Shown piece by piece: positions 11,064 to 58,795 of a stretch of DNA of 64,000 bases. This stretch comes from Corallium rubrum (Eukaryota > Cnidaria > Anthozoa > Scleralcyonacea > Coralliidae). Within the stretch, counting starts at the first letter, position 1. Each line of letters begins with the position of its first letter. A program made the position numbers and the translations under genes. The stretch covers positions 1,182,561-1,246,560 of the forward strand of contig OZ036003.1 in the NCBI GenBank assembly GCA_964035015.1, written 5' to 3'. The notes beneath the pieces are model-generated. The model had not been told where the DNA came from and did no database searches. It saw only the letters and a list, made by a program, of their open reading frames with translations.

Positions 11064-12326
11064 CTAAATTCGAGATACATTTGAGATTTGCTCTTTGCTT
11101 GCCTTCTCGTATTTAAAGAGCGCCTTAGAGCTATGCCCTGTTCTGTCTCGTATAAGCTTTTCGTCAATACCATGTTGAAAAAGTGCAGTGGTGCAAGTCA
11201 CCCTAAGAGAATGAGCCATCTTGACCTTTATGCCCACACTCTTACACATATCTGGCAATATCTTACTCAACGTATTCACACCAACAGGGCTATTTGAGAA
11301 ACCCAAATTCTTTGTATTTGGCCGAAAATAATATGCGTTAACTTTAGGTTCTTCGCATTTGGCAAGTTCAATATACAACTTGTAAACTTCAACGAGGCAA
11401 CGTTCATGTTTGTCACCTTCCTCGTGACATACATGACGAACCTTCCTTGGGACATATTTCAAATCGCAAAGACCACCATGAAATGTTTTGCTAACATTCT
11501 CTTCAAACTGGATATAATTACTGCCTACTTCAAAATTATTGAGTATTATATTACGATGCTCTCCGCGCCTAACGACAAACAACTTCCCATTATAATAATA
11601 CACAGTATTAAGCAAACTTTTAGATGTACTCAGGCCTAATTGTCCCGCAACCCAAAATTTCTCTTCTTCCTCATCAGTTATAGCTTCTTTCTCAGCCTTT
11701 TTGTGAGCAATACCGACTCCTTCCCTCGTAGACTTCTTCATTTCACAATCCAACAGCTTTTGAAAACGTAAAAATCTACAAAAATTATACAATAGTCAGT
11801 ACGGTGTATTACTAATCAGAAACCCAATGCGCTTAACAATTACAGTATACTATACACAAAAACCTGCAACGCACCGTGTATCCGACTTATCCAAAGGGTT
11901 TAACGCTAATGAGCCATTCTTTTCGTCAAGATGCCTCTTCAAAGCGGCCACTAAACCATACACGCTACGTGGTAACAACCTCCTGAATAAATTTCCCAAG
12001 CCAGTATAGTATGCCATGCTTTCGCCATTCATTTCTTCCAAAGCTGTGTCAACAGTTTGCACATTGTCATCAACCTCGTCGCTTGTCTCGCTTTTCGTAC
12101 TTCTGTAATACTGCCATTCCTTAAACACATCGACAGTCCACTTGTTCTTGTATCGGGTAGAACAAGGAATAGCGGTCTGAATAGCTTCTGTCTCTTCTGT
12201 TAATGTCCTAGCTTCTCGAAATGAACGCCCATCTTTGCTTCCCGTATTCATATTCACCTTCGCTGGTGAACTAACATATATGCTAATAATCTGAGCAACG
12301 CACCCTGTTATATAATAGCACGCCAT
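11064..12326 (-). CDS. Crypton-type tyrosine recombinase
   Basis: Exons 12326-11875 and 11775-11064 join in phase (donor ACACG/GTGCGT, acceptor ttttgtag/A) to give 387 codons. The N-terminal part has a compact helical domain (TRYKNKWTVDVFKEWQ) like that preceding Crypton recombinases. The C-terminal part has the tyrosine-recombinase hallmarks: an HSLR box (H-x-x-R), RTGHSS (the GH box) and a downstream catalytic-candidate Tyr in FKYEKAS. RRGEHRN earlier may include the first catalytic Arg. Cryptons are circular-intermediate DNA transposons and also gave rise to domesticated animal genes. The start could instead be an internal Met near 12252. After the TAG, the +1 frame stays open for about 50 more codons (10.9-11.06 kb), so a single-base deletion may have shortened the protein. 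Confidence 0.75.
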
Positions 12327-12366
12327 CTAATTAGGGAATTCTACAACAATAGACTATTGAGAAGTT

Positions 12367-12765
12367 ATTTCATGAACTCGTGGCTCGCGTTTTACCGGAG
12401 ATTCCAAACACTTGAGAACAGTTGAATTCACTCGACTGTTCACCGCGCGATTTTCATAATTGTTCTCTCGAGTTTGCAAAACACTCAAGACAATGAAAAC
12501 ACGAGTATGGTGGCCTAGGAGTGCCATAAGAATTTGTGATATATTTATTATTATTATTTTTTTTTATTTTATTTTTATTTAAAAATTAATTTTTTTATTT
12601 TTGAATATTTTTTTATTTTATTTTTTTTAAATAAAGAAATACTTTTTATATTTTACTTTTTGTTTTTAAAACGTTTTTATTATAAGAAAAAAATTTTAAA
12701 AAAGTAAATAAATAAAAATAAAATGAAAAATTTGGCAGCCCATGAGTGCCATGACCATAATGCTT
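12367..12765 (+). repeat. Left terminal inverted repeat
   Basis: The outer ~150 bp is complex sequence. The middle (about 12,538-12,728) is a nearly G/C-free tract of A/T runs. The inner end is GGCAGCCCATGAGTGCCATGACCATAATGCTTT. It matches the reverse complement of 18,440-18,870. Confidence 0.8.
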
Positions 12766-12863
12766 TATTTGAAGGCAAGCGTGTAATGAGCCCGTAATGT
12801 GTGGTTCAGTGGTCTTTTAAAGCGCGAATTTTTGCATTGCAAACAAACAATATTTAATTTCGG

Positions 12864-15800
12864 ATGACATCGATAAATCCGCGAATAATGAACAGTGATT
12901 GGGAAAACGACGAAGAGCTTAAAGAAGATTTGGAAAGATACGTCAAACAAAACCTTAAAAGGAAAGAAATACTAGATTTTGTTTCCGGCAAGTACCCAAT
13001 GTACGCATGGAGTATCCGCACTCTTTGTCGTCGATTGAGTCATTTCAACATCAGGTACATAGATTATCAAACAGATTTGAACGATGTACAGGTTGCAGTG
13101 CAGGAAGAGATGAAGGGACCTGGACAATTGCTAGGATATCGTGCCTTGCACAAAAAGATTCGGGAAATTCATCACCTAAAAGTGCCAAGGGACGTTGTGT
13201 ATGCTATGATGGCTGAAGTGGATCCCAGAGGTCTGGAAGAAAGAAGTGGTGTTGGCAAGCGGAGACAAGCTCCAAAAGGTGTATTTACATCAAAGGTAAT
13301 GTTATGTATTGTAGATATATGCAACTAAAAGATGTTTATCAATATGGTTGCAATGGTAAGACTAGTTTCACATCATGAAAAATCTAATTTCCAGGACCTG
13401 AGTGACTGCATGAGGGTCATTCATCTCTGGCAATAGGGATTACAAGAAGGGTCTGGAGAAAAAAGTCAGGAATCACTGGGCTTTATATGTACTATAATTT
13501 GCAGCTAGTAAGTTCAGAGTTACTAAATTTAAAGTTAGTTAAAATACAAAAAAAGTGTTCTTGTAACCAAGTACCACCAGTGAGTTTTATACTTTTATAG
13601 CATGCCTAAGTATACAATTACTGTATATAATTATAATACAAAATTAAAAAATAATTAATTATTAATAATAATAATAATAATAAAAAGAATAATAATACTT
13701 TATTCAAACAGCCTGGTAACTAGAATTACATATTACTAGAATTAGAATTCTACTATTTACACCATCATAGATAATCATATATTACCTATTAAGATATATT
13801 AGTATATAATATTTACAAAAATACAATTAAATTACTACAATATATACTATAAATATAATGCTACTGTATTATTATATTATTAGCTCATTATTATATATTT
13901 CTTATTATATTATTATTATTATTATTACATGTAACAAAATTTATAACAGATGTACTCCTTCAGTATATATAAGCATACTGTTATCAATGGAGGGCCGGTG
14001 TTAAATTTAAAACAACAGAATAAAGTTGTATAAAAAATAATGGTCAATAACTACTAATATCTAAGACATGGAAAGTGTAAGACATTTTTAATAATTCTAA
14101 GTAAAATTCAATCAAACGTTTAGGAATCAAGTTTAAGAATGTTCTGTATTTTGGATCTAAACTTTGTATTATTAAAAATTATTATTTATTATTTATTTAT
14201 ATTATTAGATAAAAATTATGCCATGTTGGTTCACCCTGGGAACATAATTATGCCCCCAAATTTCAAGGCCTGGTTACTGTATGTACTGTCAGTATATATT
14301 TACTGTACATGTAATTATTGGACCAGTGTACATGACAGATGTGGGACCTCAGCCTGGGGGCACATCACTCAAAAAAATCTTGTTCACTTTTGAAAAAATC
14401 CTTTACATCTCTTAACATTTGAAGACAATCTTGGAAAATTTCATAAAATCCCTTGAAAGTCCTAGAAAATCCATAAAATGTGTGGGAAAATATTAAGATA
14501 ATCCCAAAAAATCCTGTACACCTTTCTGTGCCTGTGGAGTGATGTGCCTCTTGTATGGAGCCAATATGTTATACTGGACAGAAACTGTATATATGTATTG
14601 TCTCTTTAAGGTTTCAGATTGGACAATGTCTCTTGATGGGCATGATAAGTTATGTGGCTATCAGAAAGCCACATTTCCACTATGCATCTATGGAGGATTA
14701 GACACTTATAGTGGCAGAATACAATTTCTTCATATCTGGACATCAAACAACAATCCGAAAGTTGTTGGTCCGTATTATTTGGAATACTTGTTTGAATCTA
14801 GAGGTAAGTTAGTGACTCCATAGCAAAGGTCAACCCCATACTTTAATCAGCATTATGACAATAACATAATAATCAATATATTTTTGAAGGTGACCAGATG
14901 AGAAAAATTAAAAAATGACAATCTTAGTCTGATTACTGTATCATCTGATTATAGTAATGCCATCACGCCTACGCCTAGATAAGGGGACTGAAACTGTGGA
15001 TATGGCTACTATGCATTCATATCTCCTTAGTAAGCACTGTGATACTCAAGATGCAGCAGACTGTGTGATATATGGCCCCTCTACAGAAAACAAGATAGAG
15101 AGATGGTGGAAAGAGCTTTTGGAGAGACTGGAAAGATTCTTTAAAGATCAACTCAGGAAACTGTTAGAAGATGGTGATTATGAAAGAGATGACCCCCTTC
15201 ACAGGTAGTACTGGTACATGTATACATGTGATGCATTAAATTATGTGGGATTGTGCATGTGGAGAATAAGGTTACCATCATACCACAACTTGCTCCTAAC
15301 TTGACCTTGTAGCTCAGTTAGTAGAGCATCAGACTGGTAAACTGAACATTGTGGGTTCAAATCCTAGCCATAATATTTAATAAAGTTTACATGTAGTACA
15401 GTACCAGTTAAGCCATTGTTTAACTCAACCTCTGACAGTCATTCCGTAAGGTTGACTAATGGCTTGCAACACGAGTATACAAGGAGCATTAATTCAGTAG
15501 ATTATTTTTTCTGCTAAACTGTGGTACTGTACAATTATTTTTTTCAGAGATTTACTTGCATTTGTGTACATTCCAGTTGTTCAAAGGGAACTGGACATTT
15601 TTAGAGAAACAGTGTGGAATAGTCATCGTGGCCGAAAGCAAGCAAAAAAACAACTTCCAACTGGAATACCAGACCATATTTATAGCTTTCCTGAACGGTA
15701 TGGAGGTGACAAGTGTGGTCATGTCATCAATGAAGAACATTTGAAGGAAGTTGCTGAATTATCAGGTGTTTTGGAAGGAACTGATGACTTTTTGGATCCA

Positions 15801-15902
15801 GCATTTCGAGCACGCTGTGAAGTACTTATTCCTGACACAGATGAAATTAAACCTGCAGAGGCTGCAGATGCATACTTGTATCTTAAAGCAAATTTAGCCT
15901 GA
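12864..15902 (+). CDS. IS3-like integrase-type DDE transposase
   Basis: Four exons fit together: 12864-13295 (donor AAAG/GTAATG), 14611-14803 (acceptor tttaag), 14955-15204 and 15548-15902. Their phases agree and give 1,230 nt, or 409 aa, without an internal stop. The N-terminal third is a helix-turn-helix region with IS3-like phrasing (GYRALHKKIREI, VPRDVVYAMMAEVDPRG). The catalytic core has Asp in SLDGHDKL (~153), Asp in LRLDKGTE (~217) and Glu in NKIERWW (~257), a plausible DDE triad of the rve/integrase fold. The protein would cut and paste the surrounding inverted-repeat element. It converges on the alpha-kinase gene, with ~1.2 kb of intervening DNA. ATG choice at 12864 is uncertain; 12891 is an alternative in-frame Met. 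Confidence 0.8.
13296..14610 (+). other. Intron 1 of the integrase-type transposase
   Basis: AT-rich, with runs of AATAAT/TTATTA near 13,660-13,700 and 13,900-13,930. No other gene is seen. Confidence 0.6.
15300..15380 (+). mobile_element. tRNA-derived SINE-like module in intron 3
   Basis: The A box GTAGCTCAGTTAGTAGAGC and B box GGTTCAAATCC are about 35 bp apart, as in tRNA-type pol III promoters. Flanking arms do not make a convincing acceptor stem. It lies in the last intron of the transposase. Confidence 0.6.
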
Positions 15903-17095
15903 ACTACTGTAAGATTTATTTGATTAGTTTTAAAAGTAGCACCCAAGGTTCAACTTAGTTGAAGGAAAATGAATGTTTAATCTCTTTTAAAATAAAGAGC
16001 TTTGGAAAACTTGGTCATTTAATTTACTTTTTAAAAATTCTTTTGCATTTGTACGCATGCAACGTGCAGTTTTTCTCATTTGACTAACTAAGGTGCAAAT
16101 TGCAGATATTCACTTGATTCCAACCCTGAGAACCCATTGAACTATCCAAATTTGGAACTTATCATAGATAATTAACTGTCAATGATGCAATGGCACTGTT
16201 GGAAGGAGTGAAAGAACTTGGTTTAGATTTGCCTACATGTAGGCACGTTTCATCTCCTCAAAACCAGTTAATTAAGCTGTTATAGAAATGTGAAATACGA
16301 ATTGTAGTAAGTATTACAAAGCTGCATTCACTTGACTACAGTATACATGTATATGAAAAATGATGCCATTGTCATTAATAATATACTTGAACCTGAAGAT
16401 ACTATATATCAGTGATGTTTTTCACGTTTTAGAAGTGGGGGAACACTCACCAAAGTCAAATGGGCATGGCCACTAGTCATAATAATCAAATTGGCGTGGC
16501 CACTGGTCATGAAAGTTAATGGGTGTATCACTGTATCCTGGCCAAATGATTAGGGGGAACAGCATTCCCCCAACAATTATATATATACATTCCTAGATCA
16601 GGTATTGCAAACTTAGATGACTGGGTTTAACAGGGAAAAGAAAGTTGTACTGTTAGCTTACATGTATATCAATTTAAATGTAAAAATATCAAAATTTATT
16701 GTCAATTTCCAAGAGTTCACAATGCAGTTACTGTATCTCTTTCTGGTGTAAATATTAATAACTTTAACAATCCACTACAAAGCACCAAACAGAAAATGGT
16801 GGCACTGGAATGGGGAACCCAGGCCCTCATCTGGAAAAAAAAGTGTCAGGAAAATAGAATGATCTAGAAGGAAAATCACAGTCATCAGTCCAATCTTTTT
16901 CCATCCCCAGTTTACCATTTTTATCAAGGATGTAACCCCCTACCAATTTTAAGACATTTACGGTGCCACCATTACTGTACTGTATTGTACATGTATAACA
17001 TGCTTCAGATAGAAACAGGAATAAAACTCAACATACTGGTTTTCAAACAGAGTTACATTTGAATGTTGTCTAAGGTTATTGAAGTATTCACATGG
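15903..17095. other. Interval between the two convergent genes
   Basis: No coding region is recognised. A short direct repeat (GGCATGGCCACTAGTCAT and GGCGTGGCCACTGGTCAT) lies near 16,460-16,510. The 3' UTRs and polyadenylation signals of both convergent genes should lie here. Confidence 0.4.
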
Positions 17096-17101
17096 TGTTT
17101 A

Positions 17102-18388
17102 TTATATACCAAGAAGGGCACAATATTTGTTGCACTTGTGCTCTGATAAAAATTGTTCTATTGCTTGTGTGGACAGATTTCCACAGCAAAATAGTATGGT
17201 CTGACTGTCATCATCCAGAAGCTTGGTACTTGCCACTTCTGGGTCACATAGACCATACCCAGTTCCTTGGATATCCAAAACCATAATTGCTTTTTCTGAC
17301 TTCACATATGTAAAATGTGTGAATGCTTCTGCCTTGTCTGCAACCTCGCTTCCACTAACCACAATATTTCCATCATTGTTGATGTACTTGATGAACTCAC
17401 CTTCCAGGTATAACTCCAAGGTTACAAGTTGATGGTCATTCCTGCCTAAATACACTTTCGAATACTTGAATGTTTCTCCATACTCTGCATGGATAGAGCT
17501 CTCTTTCTCCAACAGCATGGCATAATATCTTGCCAGACTATTCATTTGCACAGATTTTCTTGTATGATTATCCAAAGACCCAAATAAATCTTCTATGGAT
17601 TGGATCTGATCAGGTTTGTAGCGTTTAAGAACATACCTTCCTTTCAGACCAGAGATGGCTTGGGCGTTAAAGGCATTTCTAAAGGCTCCACTGGAAAAAG
17701 GTGACTTACTCACAGATACCTTGGCTGAAAATGGCACAAGCCATTCTTTTTTTTCCATAGAAAACTCTTCAAGGTAAAGTTCGATGATCTCCTGGTCACA
17801 TGCAGGAGGGATCAGCTTGCCAAGTTGAAGAAGCGTGCTCAGAGACACTGATTTTGGAAATGCTGAATGCTGCACGACCTTTTTGGGGGATTCAACAGGC
17901 AAAGATCTTCATGATTCAACATCTTTTGTAGTAAGATCAATCTTTTTCAGTTTAGCTTTCTTCACTGTTGGACTACAAGTACTACTGGAACCGAAGGCTT
18001 CATCACCTTCCTCAGGCTCAGTCTCTTTGTCGTCAAAGTAAAATCTTACATGCAACAGTTTAAAGTTTTTTATCTGATCTATGCTCGTGTACGACGGCCC
18101 TCTCTCACCAGCCAGCACGTCGCATGCCATAAAGGATGCCACATCAAAATAACTTTTGCACGCATTCTTGATGTTGTCAAGCGTTAATGCATCATAAGGG
18201 AACGGCACGATAGCTAACGGCCCAATTCGACTGTATTTCTGGCATTTCCCCTCGACCTCAGCAGACAATCTTTGAACAGTTAAGTCGTCCACAGCATCTG
18301 GCTGCTTCTCGTCTGTTTTACGTCTCTTTTCAGCATGCTTTTGCTTAAAATCCGCCCACTTCTTGTTATTTCTTGCTTTATTCGACAT
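17102..18388 (-). pseudogene. Alpha-kinase (MHCK/eEF2K family) passenger gene with one internal stop
   Basis: A single uninterrupted frame of 428 codons, from ATG at 18388 to a stop at 17102, contains one TGA at 17,909-17,911 (codon ~160). The C-terminal two thirds is a complete alpha-kinase domain: invariant-Lys region YVLKRY (~255), ARYYAMLLEKE, an Glu/Gly-rich ELYLEGEFIKY strand, the AFTHFTY motif, DIQGTGYGLCDP (~372-383; the DxQG and DP signature), and the zinc-binding tail HKCNKYC (~417-423). The N-terminal region (~1-159) is a basic stretch plus a conserved-looking domain (RIGPLAIVPFPYDAL) that I do not recognise. The stop context TCATGAAGA is consistent with a CGA-to-TGA CpG mutation. 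Alpha-kinases phosphorylate Ser/Thr, often in helical substrates. Its position inside the inverted repeats, convergent with the transposase, makes it a passenger gene candidate. Confidence 0.85.
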
Positions 18389-18439
18389 GATCCGATATAC
18401 ATGTAAAATCGTAGAATACACACACATGTTTGTCCCCAC

Positions 18440-18870
18440 CACTCCACCCTCAAAGCATTATGGTTATGGCACTCATAGGCTGCCAAATTTTTCATTTTAT
18501 TTTTATTTATTTTTTTTTTTAAATTTTTTTCTTATAATAAAAACGTTTTAAAAACAAAAAATAAAATATAAAAAGTATTTCTTTATTTAAAAAAAATAAA
18601 ATAAAAAAATATTCAAAAATAAAAAAATAAATTTTTAAATAAAAAAAAAAAATAAATATATCAAAAATTCTTATGGCACTCCTAGGCCACCATACACGAG
18701 GCCGGCACGGCCGAGTGGTTTTCGTTGTCTTGAGTGTTTTACAAACTTTCGTGTTTTACAAACTCTCGAGAACAATTATAAAAATCGCTTGGTGAACAGC
18801 CTCGTGAATTCAATTGTTCTCGCATGTTTGGAAACCATGGTAAAAACATTCGCACTCGTTTATGAAATAT
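18440..18870 (-). repeat. Right terminal inverted repeat
   Basis: Mirror of 12,367-12,765. The outer edge CGTTTATGAAATA abuts the CA microsatellite. It holds an extra ~35-bp internal duplication (AACTTTCGTGTTTTACAAACT) absent from the left arm. The kinase gene starts only ~50 bp inside it, so this repeat may contain the kinase promoter. Confidence 0.8.
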
Positions 18871-18871
18871 T

Positions 18872-18992
<121 letters not shown>

Positions 18993-19031
18993 ACACAAGA
19001 TGAGAAACACAAGTTACTTCATCGAAATTTT

Positions 19032-19091
19032 ATTTACTACAGAACTGTTTCGTACGGCAAGTGTTAAGCTTGCAACACTCATCAGGTAAAT
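19032..19091 (-). ncRNA. Mirror-image hammerhead ribozyme
   Basis: The reverse complement carries the same layout: stem I ATTTAC/GTAAAT, CTGATGA core, GAA, the ACAG/CTGT stem III and GTA cleavage triplet. Stem II (GTGTTGCAAG with CTTGCCGTAC) has one mismatch and two wobble pairs, so it may be weaker than the plus-strand copy. Confidence 0.7.
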
Positions 19092-19593
19092 GATATAATA
19101 TTTCAACAGCGCAACGGAATATATACAAGAGATGCATAATTAAGTAGTTTGATCATGTTACATGTAGTGGTGAGAGTGTTATCGTAGTAGGAATTTCTTC
19201 CGGTGTCGGCATGTGGATACGAGTTCGTTACGTTTGTTGAGAGAGCTTAGTTCGGGGTGGCATATGATGATAAATTTTTCGGACAGACATAAGTTACAGC
19301 GTTTGGTTTTATTAGAATATGGTTGTGATTTCTTAATGATTTTCCAGTTAATAGTATACGAGGTGTTAGAGTCTTTTAATTTCCAAATGTGCTTGGTTAG
19401 TTCGGTTGCTAATTAAATCATATGCCACCCCGAACTAAGCTCTCTCAACAAACGTAACGAACTCGTATCCACATGCCGACACCGGAAGAAATTCCTACTA
19501 CGATAACACCCTCACCACTACATGTAACATGATCAAACTACTTAATTATGCATCTCTTGTATATATTCTGTTGCGCTGTTGAAATATTATATC

Positions 19594-19653
19594 ATTTACC
19601 TGATGAGTGTGGCAAGCTTAACACTTGCCATACGAAACAGTTCTGTAGTAAAT
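19594..19653 (+). ncRNA. Type I hammerhead ribozyme
   Basis: All conserved parts are visible. Stem I is ATTTAC (19594-19599) pairing with GTAAAT (19648-19653). The core is CTGATGA (19600-19606). Stem II is GTGTGGCAAG (19607-19616) pairing over ten positions with CTTGCCATAC (19624-19633), one of them G-U, with loop CTTAACA. GAA (19634-19636) follows. Stem III is a short ACAG/CTGT hairpin with a two-base loop. The cleavage triplet is GTA, with scission expected between 19647 and 19648. Hammerheads with a short stem III are known from Penelope-like elements. Activity is predicted, not shown. Confidence 0.8.
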
Positions 19654-19779
19654 AAAATTTCGATGAAGTAACTTGTGTTTCTCATCTTGTGTTATGCCGC
19701 TCTGCGTACGCATTGAGCACTCTATCCGTACGATTTTGTATGCGCTAGTTTCTATCCTCACGATAGTTTCTATCACTAC

Positions 19780-24302: not shown

Positions 24303-27300
24303 ACAGTGTAGACTTACAGTAGTCATTGATGGCTAAATAGAATTAGCTTGGATAATTGTTTTCTGATTTTTTTCCCTTGCAGCTTTGCTGTATGAACTCT
24401 GGCCAAGTGATGCATGCGGATCTTTGAATAACACTGGGAACAACACCTAACCAATGAAGCAATGTGATTGTTTGTTGCTGTACAGTCATACATGTGCTCC
24501 TCCCAGGTTCAAAAATGTCTGATCCAATGCAAGTAGATAGTACGGTGGTTGCAATTGCATGGACGAATCCGGAACACTGCTGAAATTTTCCTGATGTTGT
24601 GTTCAGCATTCTCATCAAACACTTTTCTGTTTCATGGCATATCTTGAGCAGAGACAAAGATGGAATGGTTAACCCTCCATTGTTCTTCCAAACAACAAAT
24701 GACATCTTTGCTCCTTCTTTTGGAACTGTGAGTGCACCCGTGCATGTTGGGCAAATAATTTGCTTCTTTACCATCTTGGCAACGAAACCTCCAATGTAAG
24801 AAATGGCCTCTTCTTTGTATTCTGACAGCTCTATAGCATTTGATACATTGCAGTAATCGTGGTCAACTGCAGCTGGTTGTCGAACTTTCAGATTATATCT
24901 TCTGGCAATCGAGATGTCAGAGGTACCTGTTTGGCAGGAGTTGATGGGACACTGTTCTTCAACACTATCCAAAATCCTGGTGTCATCTTGTGGACTGCAA
25001 TTTCCACTTCCTCCTTCAATTTTGTGGCGCATCAGCAGCTGTTTATAGGTGGCAATGAAATGGCGGGTTGTTGGGTTATTATTCCAACCACCTGCAGATC
25101 TCACTGCAGCGAAGAATAATTCTATGTGATCTTGGCTCAATTTGTACGTGAGGAGATACTTTAATTTGGCTGGTGTAGATGCTACAAGATCCTTGTACAA
25201 TGCTTGGACGCTCTTTATGGCTACTAGAAATCCAAGAAAACCAGTCTTGTGACGGGAGGTGATGATGGAACTACCAGTTGGACCTTTGATGCGCTTGATA
25301 TACTGAAATGCTTCTTCGAGGAACTTATTGATGTATTGATAATTGGACATTCGCAATGGAGCTTTGTAGTTTTTGGCCAGTGGGTTTCTCGAATTTAAAA
25401 TATCAAACAAGCGGTCAAAGACACAGAGGAATTGTGAGGTTGGATGGCAGCTACTGAATTCTGGCAGGTGGAGATGGCTGTCACAGTAGTCCACGGCGTC
25501 TGCTACACTCGAGCTGAGAGACTGTGCTGCAATGTTGACTTTCATTTTCTGTTGATGCCAGTTGATGTGGGCAAATCTCAATATATTTGCTAGATGTAGT
25601 CCCTCAGTATCTTGCAGCTTGTGTAACTCTTCGAGGCACTGCCATTTAACTGTGTTCCCATCTGGATCATACAGGACTTTAAGATCTCCAAGTGTATTCC
25701 GCACCAACTTCAACATATGGCAAACATCAAGGAAAACATGGATGTTGCAGGATGGATCACTTGGATGTTTGAAGGATGGATTTAATGCATCTACAGATTA
25801 TGTGACGCCCAGAGCTTTCATCATGGACAAATCGGCTGCTGGACCATCACAAGTGAGGGAAACTACCTTGACACCAACATCATGCAATTTGTGCAAGCAT
25901 ATTGTGATCAAGTTAGCTTTTTCTTTCCCACTCATGCCATCAATTAAGAAATACCCACATGGGACTTTCCAACTGGAATTCACAGAGACGGCCATTATCA
26001 CTAGTGCTTCAGTAGCGACTGGCATGGAATCACCAGTGACACCTGTTCCAACATCCACAAAACCACGCAATTTATCACCATCCCACTCCACATGCTTGCG
26101 GATGGACATCTCATCGAATATCAAGCTGCAGATGACATCCTGGCCATTCGTCTGGGAAGCTGTCACTTTTGCTGACATGGCTGAAAAAGCAGCTTTGGTA
26201 AAACCTGTGTCACTGTCAATGACTTTGTACCATGACCTCATGACTGATTGATGTGGGAGGCCCAAGTGAAAGCTTTTGTATACAAAATTGTAAGCCTTCG
26301 TTTAGTAGAATTTGAGGGTGAGAGCAAATGCTTGGAGCTAAGGTGTGTACGCCCCAGGATTCGTTTTCTTCTTCTGTGTGATAATTCTGTTCATGAGCTC
26401 TTGGGAAACACCAGAGAAAGTATTTTCCAGTATGGTTGCACAATCATCAGAAACAAGATTTTTGGTTCTCAATTCATCTACCACACATTGCAGTGAAGTT
26501 ACTTTTCTTCGGAGCCGTTTCATTTTCTTCCTGGAAACATCAAGTCGTCTACTAGTTTTCCTCTGACTATCGATGATCTTATCCATTTGCTTTTTAGCTT
26601 CCTAGGGCTTCTTGTGGTGGCATATGTATAGTCGTGGTGAATTGCAGATAAATCCGGCTGTTGGGATGGTTCTGGAGGTTGTGCTAACTTCTTCAATGGT
26701 GGTACATGTATTAAGGTACTTTCTGAGTCAGCCATGGGAAGTTTTCGTTTGTTAGTATTTACAATGTTAACATCAGATAATGGTTGGGTTGGGAAATACT
26801 GTAACAAAAGAATATAAGGGTATCGTGAATATCATTTAATTTAACTGTAATTCAAGTATTCAGTGTTTGTTTCAGAAAATATAAAAATAGGGCAAACAGA
26901 TCATAAAGATAATTGAGGAGAAGGGGGCAGCTTACTGTGCCCCCTCACCCCACTAAAAGAAACCCTGTTTTGTATTTCGAATAATTAAACAAAAACCTTA
27001 CCTGTCCCTCTGCTGGAAGAAAACATTTAGTTGGAATAGCATTTGATTTTAGTTTAGCCCTTCCTTCACTATATGTAGTTTCAAACATTTCATCTTCAAA
27101 ATGGAGAGAACACAGCCGACTATGTTTAGTTGGCACAAAATCCGGTCTCATTATGTGTACATTTCCTGACCATAGATCTCTTTCTTCCTTGTGTTTTTCT
27201 GGACTGGGAAATCTATAATGAAATACACATTGTAGGAACATTGACTTATATCAAAGTTATTTATTCATCAATTAATTTAATGATTTAGTAACCTCTATAG

Positions 27301-27522: not shown

Positions 27523-28347
27523 TGGCATATCACTGTGCTTGTCGTGACTGTGGCAATGGACGTTATCGGCTCAAGAAATGGAAAGAAGGTTATTGTGATC
27601 TTCACAAAACACGAGGATGTTCCAATGAATGCGACTGCCCGCCAGAGTTCAGGAAGAGAGTGAAAGCATTGCATTTTACGTTATTTTAAAGCCTTGATGA
27701 AGACCACCAATGCCATGCTACACAGACTGTGAATGGCACTGGCATGTTAACAGTTTACACTTATAAAATACATACCAGAACAAAGTGTTATCTCTGCAAC
27801 AACGCCAGAACGGTTCAAGTCGATAAAAGGACTGCACACAATCATAGATGCATCTGAACTGTTTATTGAAACACCAAAACCCCCAAAACTTCAGAGCTCT
27901 ACTTGGTCATCATATAAGCACCATAACAATTTGAAATTCCTTGTTGCCGTTGCCACAAATTCCATGGTGACATTCATTTCAAAAGCATACACTGGCAGAA
28001 CAACAGACAAACAGATAACTGTTGATTCTGGATATCTAGATAAAGTACCTAGGTATTCTACAATAATGTTTGACAAGGGGTTCATGCTGGACCAGGAATG
28101 TGCTACCCGTTGCATCACCCCATACATGCCTCCTGGAAAAAGGGGGACCTCCCAGATGACAAGTGCTGAGGTAAATAAAACCAAAAAAATTGCAAACCTC
28201 AGGATTATTGTTGAGCAGGTTATAAGAAGGGTAAAAACATTCAAAATTCTGCAGCAGGAATTACCAATAACTTTAATTCCTCAAGTCGATGACTTGCTAA
28301 TTATATGTTCTGCATTGCAAAACATGAAAAAAGCTATTATTGCCTGA
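27523..28347 (+). pseudogene. THAP-like zinc motif plus DDE_Tnp_4 transposase, internally deleted
   Basis: The first segment (27,523-27,690) starts MAYHCACRDCGNGRYRLKKW and has further Cys residues (CDLHKTRGCSNECDC), a THAP-like zinc-binding start seen in ISL2EU/PIF-like transposases. The second (about 27,781-28,347) is a continuous frame with the DDE_4 triad: Asp in TIIDASELF, Asp in IMFDKGFML and Glu in RIIVEQVIRR. The usual ~200 residues between the zinc motif and the catalytic core are missing, and the first segment ends at a TAA. The catalytic core is otherwise open to its stop. Confidence 0.7.
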
Positions 28348-39700: not shown

Positions 39701-41708
39701 AGGGCTGACTCCTCCAAGTATTTTCCTTCTTCGGACACTTTGGGTTGTTGCAAATTGTAACAACAGTAATCATAGTTCCACTTTCACAAGTTTCTACCAG
39801 GGGGTTTTCTGTTTTACAGGTAGGGCAAAATGTAAATAATACCAGAAGTTGCTTCCAAAATACAATGAACTTAGATTGTTCTCTCAGGTTTTCACTGTCA
39901 CCATCCATTCTAAGATAAAATAAAACAAACTTCTTGTTGTTAACTCTTTGATTACTACATAGGGTTTCTCTGTGATTCATACTGAGCTAAATCCCCCCTT
40001 GCAGTGCAGTCCCACTAACACCCCCCAATTGACTTTCTTGCTATGAGACCATGTATGGGGGGGGGGGGGGGGGAATTCTCTGGAACAACACAGTAGTCTG
40101 ATACCCAGTAGTCTATTACCTTGATAAAAAAAATAACAAGGTGGTGAACTGCATATACAGTTATACTGTTAATTTCAAGCATAAGCTCTATGATGAAGGG
40201 CTTTTGCTTGAAACGTCATCATTACTTATTCACAGAATTGACAGCTCACCACCTTTTTGTTATTTTATCTTGCATTTCAAACTGCCCATGCAGCACCAAA
40301 ACTTTTTACATTATTTACCTTGAGTAGTTATTCATTCCTGGTTCATCTTCCTGATCTGATTCTACCTCAAAATTGTTTGCAGGCTCCCAATAATCAGGTT
40401 GGGTTTTTTCAGATGAAGCAGACATGGTTTCTTCCTCCTCAGAAATGCTCTGTTTGTCATCACAAAATTCTGAGACTGCAGACAATTTTTCAGTTTCACA
40501 TCCAGCTGACTCTGTAATTTCTGGAGAATTGGGGCACTGGATCCCTGGAACAAAATATAAAAATTACTAATTATTAAAAGACAGTTTCATAAAATAAATG
40601 TTGGCTTATAAACGAAATAAGAATCGATGTACAAAAAAATTCAGAGGTTGGTATAAAGTTCAATGTTGCAAATTAATATTATAATATATATAAATAGATA
40701 TGAACGACCATGAAATAGAAGTAAGCCAACTAAATTACAAACAAAAAAAAGAGCTGCAATACACACGTACTGTCTAATGAAAATGAGCCTGACACAATAT
40801 AAAACAGAAATTTATTGATGATGAAAAGATTTTATACCTCGAGACAATTTTCTAACTTCATACTTTGAAAGTTTTGTTTTAACATCGATTAGTTTATTGT
40901 TTGTAATCCGCAGCATCTTTTCTAATTCAATACAGTCTCCACAAGCTTTATAAGTAGTCTGAATGCCAATACTTGCACAAAGGATTTCATTAGTCTATTA
41001 AAAATATGACAAAATGGCCACAAATATAAAGTTACAAAACAAATGCGGTTTGAAACTATAACCCACCGTGGCAAGTTTCGAAGAAATTTTTGTCTTTAAA
41101 TAAAACTAACCTGCGTCGAGCTTTCTGATACGTTGCATCGTTCGTCTAGACACAGTCGAGGTTCTGATTCATCACACATCGGTGGGACGATTTGATCAAT
41201 TGTATCCATTGTATCACTATCAGAGTGCTGCGAAAAAGCCGCCGTCTCGCCTGCCAACAACTATCAAATATTATTTGACAAATACTGTATATTACACAAA
41301 TATGCCAAGGACGATAACTGATCTTAAATTAATAAGAACACGTACCTTTCTTCGTTTATTTCTCTGAGTGCGGTCTGATGGCGGCTCCGGCTCTTGTGGA
41401 GTTTGGAACTTGGGTATGGCTACAACGCCAAAATCATCTTTCTTTAAACTTGGCGCTTTCTTTGGTTGTCCTGGTACATTGATAAAATTTTGTTCAAAGT
41501 CTTCTTTCTCAAAATGAGCGGAACATATCCTAGATGATTTGCTAGGCGAAAAATGTTTTCTTTTTCTCTGAACAAAAGCAATCCATTGTTTTCTTCTTCG
41601 TCTAACTTGTGCTCGGGAATCGTCTTCTGAGGGAAATTTATGGAGAGCAATCCCTTTTTCGATATTGGAAATGTTAGAGCAACCATATACAATGCACCGG
41701 TCAGGCAT
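36740..41708 (-). CDS. THAP-Kolobok transposase
   Basis: Twelve exons: 41708-41346, 41245-41111, 40994-40838, 40544-40319, 39909-39552, 39355-39158, 38772-38586, 38384-38133, 38012-37841, 37535-37387, 37201-37001 and 36870-36740. All phases agree (2,529 nt, 842 aa, no stop). Exon 1 is a THAP DNA-binding domain (CIVYGCSN, HKFPSEDD, CSAHFEKEDF). Exons 2-4 are an acidic/coiled linker. Exon 5 has a zinc motif (CPTCKT, CNNPKC) then WRSQPF and GNFLLSFAILVAGG. Candidate catalytic acids are Asp in AGDGRHDS, Asp in FISDRHTS and Glu in CIEGFHSVLNHFAPKM. The C-terminus has a zinc-knuckle-like CKMCKNPMKGH. Intron 9 appears to use a GC donor (TGCAG/GCAAGT). Introns carry a MITE (38,864-39,016) and a G17 run. 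It should mobilise the surrounding element. Confidence 0.88.
38864..39016. mobile_element. MITE in Kolobok intron 6
   Basis: Terminal inverted repeats ACCATATTTCCTCTATTAAG and CTTAATAGAGGAAATATGGT. The interior repeats GGGGCTTAAT motifs in both orientations. It was carried along in an otherwise intact transposon. Confidence 0.85.
40057..40073 (+). repeat. G17 homopolymer
   Basis: Seventeen G residues in intron 4 of the Kolobok transposase. Its length is prone to sequencing error. Confidence 0.9.
40128..40262. repeat. Inverted repeat in Kolobok intron 4
   Basis: ATAACAAGGTGGTGA at the left pairs with TCACCACCTTTTTGTTAT at the right, a likely MITE or foldback. Confidence 0.5.
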
Positions 41709-41896
41709 TTCCAATTTTAAAATATTTCAAAAAGTGTAGAAAATTAATATAATTACATCTCGAACACAAGGTTGAATAGTTGAACTTACAGCGACAGTAA
41801 TTTTGGTGTGCCGACTGTGACGTAGCTCTACAATTAGAGCCCAGGCCTAAGACAAACGGTCTAACTTTCAAAATGGCACGATTTGGGCTGATTTGG

Positions 41897-57930: not shown

Positions 57931-58795
57931 AGTATTTATGAAAGGAAATTTTCGGTTCCTTTTTTATTTGAGTTTCTGATAGAGTTTTTTTGCGCTGAAC
58001 ATCGTGGGCAAATTTGTTTTTGACGTAGTGTCCTAGAAAGTAGGTTTTTTTCACTCTAAAAGTGGCAATTTTTGACAAGTAGATGTCCGGCTGAGGCGCG
58101 CGGTCAAATTATGTGTGTGACATCACTGGTTAGAGTCGCATCAAACTTGCTTGTGCTAAAGATGGCAACATCAAGCAAGCGAGACGGAGGTTGTAGCGAT
58201 AAAAGTAAAAAACAGTTGGGGAAATATTGTGTGGCTGGTGGACCAGGGAATGCAAGTTGTAAGAATAACTCACTTGTGGAAGGAATATCGATGCATGGCT
58301 TCCCTAAGACCGAAGGAACGTTACGAAATTCGTGGATAAAGTTTGTCCAAAAACACCGACCTAACTGGCAGCCATCGTCATACTCGCCACTTTGTTCAGC
58401 TCATTTTGAGCCTCGTTTTTTCCTCCAACAACGAGATATCACCGTCAAACAGTTAGAGCCAGACAAACCATTCGAAACAAAGAGATGGTTGGACAGAAAA
58501 AGTGCTTTTCCGACGATAGATACAGTGCGGCCGGAGGTACGTTGAAACTAGGTTTCTGTCGAAACTCGTTGACAAATTAACCTGATGTTAATCTTTATTT
58601 GCATGGAAGGCAAATATTCCTTAACCTATCTTATCATGCACATTTTGTTTCAACATATTAAAGTATGATACTATGCGTTTTCTTTCAGATTTTGCGGGAG
58701 ACTAATTTGCATTCCACGCAAACAGCGGGACCAATGGCAAATATGGATACCACTGTTGACAATTAAGAAAGCTTTGCCGAAGATAAAAGTCAAGA

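Follow-up and report, generated by a model that had tools for sequence, protein, structure and literature searches.

The analyzed window is a stretch of 64,000 nucleotides from the assembly of Corallium rubrum (Cnidaria, Anthozoa; GenBank GCA_964035015.1, contig OZ036003.1, positions 1,182,561 to 1,246,560). One DNA transposon spans window positions 12366–18869 and contains, between its inverted repeats, two convergent genes encoding a transposase and an alpha-kinase. Its features are as follows:

12366..12766, strand not applicable: left terminal inverted repeat, 401 bp, first letters TATTTC
12888..13295, plus strand: transposase exon 1, N-terminal helical part, lacking the HHCC zinc motif
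14611..14803, plus strand: transposase exon 2, first catalytic D, in SLDGHD
14955..15204, plus strand: transposase exon 3, second D, in LRLDKGTE, and catalytic E, in NKIERWW
15548..15902, plus strand: transposase exon 4, stop codon included
17099..18388, minus strand: alpha-kinase gene, ATG at 18388 and TAA at 17099–17101, conserved N-terminal domain followed by the kinase domain
17102..17908, minus strand: frame with the entire alpha-kinase domain (PF02816, frame residues 73–263)
17909..17911, minus strand: in-frame TGA breaking the kinase gene between the N-terminal and kinase domains
18452..18869, strand not applicable: right terminal inverted repeat, 418 bp, last letters GAAATA

The spliced transposase is a stop-free protein of 401 aa encoded by four exons with GT-AG introns, the exon borders being predicted by reading of the frames. 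It matched the Pfam family rva_4 (9.8e-19), and its catalytic triad comprises D145, D209, and E249 (DD39E). The preliminary description of this locus had reported an intact four-exon DDE transposase and diverged inverted repeats of about 400 bp around both genes, and both were confirmed. Structure comparison assigned a relative of the transposase, P0003, to the integrase fold. A PDB sequence search using the transposase profile yielded two weak matches (E 0.45 and 0.77), which were judged to be due to chance.

Alignment of the two repeats (12367–12790 versus 18445–18870) showed 347 identical bases among 389 paired ones (89.2%), with 72 gap columns. Agreement was lowest at the ends (68% over the outer 53 bp), rose to 86% over the following 80 bp, and reached 94%–97% further inward, the stretches closest to the two start codons being nearly identical. 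Going inward, the two ends cease to resemble each other about 121 bp short of the transposase ATG on the left and 63 bp short of the kinase ATG on the right. The kinase start, previously put at about 50 bp from the right repeat, is indeed close to it but lies about 63 bp inward. Since the repeats are most alike nearest the start codons, the right repeat may supply the kinase promoter, as suggested earlier.

The kinase gene was found to be less intact than first described. Its alpha-kinase domain is complete (PF02816, 7.3e-36) and the gene is convergent with the transposase, as claimed, but the TGA at 17909–17911 cuts the reading frame, which is otherwise open throughout. At this column every aligned relative shows either a residue or a gap, although these relatives are themselves predicted proteins and hence provide no independent test. 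In the kinase tree the branch of the window kinase domain is short (0.067), and because the surrounding frame is open and the branch short, the break looks recent. Judged by its sequence, the kinase of this copy is probably dead.

Relatives were sampled from the best 120 of 286 transposase matches and from two overlapping kinase sets, the best 120 of 174 and the best 120 of 213 matches. In the kinase alignment the K, H, first D, and Q were conserved in 33/33 rows each and the second D in 32/33; the zinc positions H, C, and C were retained in 30/33, 30/33, and 28/33 rows. We take K, D, Q, and D to be catalytic and H, C, and C to bind zinc. The active-site residues are kept at identities down to about 34%. 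A relative, P0121, has an alpha-kinase fold near eEF2K, MHCK-A, and TRPM7 in structure comparison. Domain, residues, and fold all place the encoded protein in the alpha-kinase family. Compared with MHCK-A, TRPM7, eEF2K, and ALPK1, it shares the fold and the K/D/Q/D and H/C/C positions, but is short, transposon-encoded, and equipped with an N-terminal domain of its own; the further domains of those four proteins are absent from it. At an E cutoff of 0.001, the kinase model had no match among viral structures, and no fungal names occurred among the best 120 of 213 kinase matches.

The N-terminal domain is common to all 170 of the 170 kinases of at least 380 aa among the matches listed and matches no Pfam family. 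Aside from Alpha_kinase, Pfam families matched at most 1 of 32 kinase members each (best E 0.022). The predicted order of its elements, strand-strand-helix-strand-strand, may be read as resembling ubiquitin-like folds. Cnidarian proteins labeled MHCK-, ALPK1-, vwkA-, eEF2K-, or TRPM6-like among the matches listed also bear this domain, the short P0332 being the exception. Because they share it, we read these kinases as genes of elements rather than of the host, and the public names TRPM6-like, ALPK1-like, MHCK-like, and eEF2K for short kinases look like misannotations of transposon genes. As a whole, the proposal that such elements spread kinase genes and explain alpha-kinase expansions is not supported by this, one half of it having been tested.

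The preliminary description had proposed asking whether other copies repeatedly carry the same kinase between the repeats. Linkage was sought as equal contig sizes between the 114 rows for transposases and the 211 for kinases that give a length, the database giving only the longest contig per cluster. Seven sizes coincided among the rows listed, against 0.01 matches per shift when the sizes were shifted, and five were retained; the coincidences at 1,640 and 2,183 bases were discarded as short and derived from differing sources. In Exaiptasia diaphana the two genes are paired on contigs of 214,097 and 374,143 bases, on the latter as LOC110237035 (transposase) and LOC110237033 (kinase). Two further pairs occur on contigs of 64,267 and 5,435 bases, while a Ciona pair on a contig of 12,273,785 bases, the size of a chromosome, proves little. 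In addition, EukProt contains a transposase, P0011, and a kinase, P0129, as two gene models in direct succession. Beyond the window there are, therefore, five good pairs (four contigs of 5.4–374 kb and the EukProt pair) and one weak one, so that relatives of the two genes are linked elsewhere as well. Profile searches of viral contigs gave 34 kinase and 35 transposase pattern matches, and those of genome contigs gave 505 and 125, respectively, none of which was confirmed.

The linked genes have diverged together. Identity matrices of the two proteins were correlated across five pairs including the window (r 0.924, 2/120 permutations as high), across six pairs including the window (r 0.892, 4/720), and with Ciona added (r 0.818, 8/5040). 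Exaiptasia harbors two distant lineages of the element (P0025/P0167 and P0022/P0201), with identities of 54% for the transposase and 36% for the kinase. Unrooted trees were built from 42 of 218 kinases and 26 of 121 transposases, hand-picked and including the window. Both split the linked rows alike: the window and the EukProt pair, then the Exaiptasia 214,097-base contig, then the 374,143-base one, with the 64,267-base, 5,435-base, and Ciona pairs on the opposite side. Support at the relevant forks was 89/92 to 100/100, other forks being weak.

Each of the two large clades of the kinase tree contains linked kinases, as do the deep, unresolved rows, but three smaller groups (2, 4, and 5 rows) contain none. 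Linked transposases are scattered across their tree (5 label changes, at least 4 of them forced). Judging from these linked rows, the kinase family appears to be largely or wholly transposon-borne. The kinase tree proposed earlier as a check on whether element-borne kinases form one clade placed all 42 on one side of the branch against TRPM7 and MHCK-A (99/99), a weak test, as the two outgroup rows are long and distant and host alpha-kinases of cnidarians were not represented.

According to PMC10045372, the IS3EU/GingerRoot superfamily is characterized by TA..TA termini, usual 6-bp duplications, and an IS3/IS481-like core without the HHCC motif. The coral element has TA..TA ends (TATTTC...GAAATA) and the same kind of core, and upstream of D145 there are only one Cys and four His, so that the HHCC motif is absent; the 6-bp duplication usual for IS3EU/GingerRoot was not seen in this copy. 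According to PMC12730594 (2025), all fungal TET+ IS3EU families keep TET/JBP between an oppositely oriented transposase and alpha-kinase. The orientation of the two genes is the same in the coral element, a comparison of gene plans and not of kinase sequences, but the third gene is lacking. No frame of at least 80 aa lies wholly within 15903–17098, the position that TET/JBP would take, and for this reason we place the coral element outside the TET+ group, though possibly within IS3EU. Its ends also differ from those given there for Pucciniales TET+ IS3EU, which read TAYGG..CCRTA and are flanked by 6-bp duplications, whereas the coral element lacks a duplication and has repeats 401 and 418 bp long. 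Styx of Zymoseptoria, an IS3EU-like element with four reading frames (PMC10853768), resembles it in combining such a transposase with extra genes; these are described as GATA, CCHC, and DUF3577 proteins, and no alpha-kinase appears in the passages concerned.

By core, termini, and gene plan, the coral element is a likely, though not proven, member of IS3EU/GingerRoot. No proteins named IS3EU were present among the best 120 of 286 transposase matches. The initial statement that integrase-type transposons usually have the transposase as their sole gene does not apply to every IS3EU element, given the alpha-kinase of the fungal TET+ families (PMC12730594) and the four frames of Styx (PMC10853768). 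A polinton or retroelement identity was set aside because the anatomy, two genes between inverted repeats, does not suit it. A literature search limited to listings of papers found no animal elements with the transposase and alpha-kinase plan; a match in PMC6505742 concerns eIF2-alpha kinase and is irrelevant. The fungal plan is already in print, and what is new here is the animal branch, the co-inheritance of both genes, and the extra N-terminal domain.

We consider it probable that this is a two-gene animal transposon of the IS3EU/GingerRoot type with a resident, co-inherited alpha-kinase that most likely serves the element. The transposase, with its integrase RNase H core, would act on the inverted repeats and move the element, as its family suggests, and the kinase would be transcribed inward from the opposite repeat. 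Each repeat may bear a promoter, the inner part of the right one, a near-duplicate of the stretch upstream of the transposase, probably being the mirrored promoter. The N-terminal domain probably docks the kinase on a partner, and the kinase could phosphorylate either the complex formed by the transposase or a host factor involved in chromatin, silencing, or repair. A copy with an interrupted kinase would either be inactive or need kinase from another source. We know of no precedent for control of a transposon by a self-encoded protein kinase.

Several observations weigh against this interpretation. The reading frame of the kinase is interrupted and that of the transposase is not, a pattern that a dispensable gene would show; the kinase would then be a passenger that an ancestral element acquired a single time and has transported since, with no role in transposition. 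Movement of fungal TET/JBP accessory genes between transposon superfamilies, reported in PMC12730594, agrees with such a history. A neutral passenger would, however, decay, whereas the catalytic residues are retained in 33/33 rows at identities down to about 34% and the two genes co-diverge across six pairs. On these two grounds, active-site conservation and co-divergence, we rate an element-serving kinase above a passive passenger, which appears unlikely; the kinase probably has a function in the element. The evidence of linkage has limits of its own: it was read from contig sizes and gene names and not from DNA, 115 of the 120 listed kinase rows on contigs of at least 5 kb have no partner, and the permutation tests draw on few pairs, with counts that include the unpermuted order.

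The window itself holds one copy. A blastn search with the repeats and interior returned no second one, only self matches, the partner repeat, and short matches taken for low complexity. Nor is there a target-site duplication: the 6-bp flanks are AGAAGT and TTACGC, in a single copy whose right flank enters a microsatellite. Both findings would also fit a chance arrangement, with an element beside, or repeats enclosing, an unrelated host kinase gene. We regard this as very improbable, since members of both families share contigs elsewhere and their divergence is correlated, about 63 bp separate the kinase start from the repeat, and fungi have a parallel arrangement (PMC12730594). The linked pairs likewise argue against a conserved host locus for the kinase. 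Unlikely too, though more probable than chance and slightly less so than the passenger, is a kinase acting on the host, for example on translation like eEF2K, and kept for the benefit of the element or host by a route other than the transposase. Its modeled fold near eEF2K, MHCK-A, and TRPM7 would suit such a role, as would the maintenance of diverged lineages in one genome, that of Exaiptasia; against it, the kinase is bound to the transposase in the linked cases, and no host-locus copy was identified, no dedicated test having been made.

An element-serving kinase would mean that a eukaryotic DNA transposon steers its own movement, or host defenses, through phosphorylation. Many of the cnidarian gene models called "alpha-kinase" may belong to transposons, which bears on kinome counts and on claims of kinase expansion. 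Only tentatively, and at less than even expectation, do we extend the element-serving reading to the proposal that IS3EU-type transposons have had the alpha-kinase as a core second gene since before the animal/fungal split, or that it spread between the two, and that transposition in the superfamily is controlled by a self-encoded kinase. Were this true, the majority of short cnidarian genes with MHCK-, ALPK-, or TRPM6-like annotations would be transposon genes.

The window is rich in transposon genes. Outside the left repeat, minus-strand frames at 11064–12326 reach within 40 bp of it; the open frame at 11067–11795 matched DUF3504/tyrosine recombinase (1.7e-16), a second one at 11850–12326 has no assignment, and together they perhaps represent a Crypton-like element. 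To the right of the element, past a CA/TA microsatellite, a 279-bp inverted repeat (18990–19268 and 19417–19695) has arms that are 99% complementary and 148 bp apart. Elsewhere the window contains a P-element/THAP9-like transposase in two frames, one DDE_Tnp_4 transposase, and two THAP domains, these further transposon genes occupying 24346–26301 (minus strand), 27751–28344 (plus), 41295–41726 (minus), and 58060–58542 (plus).
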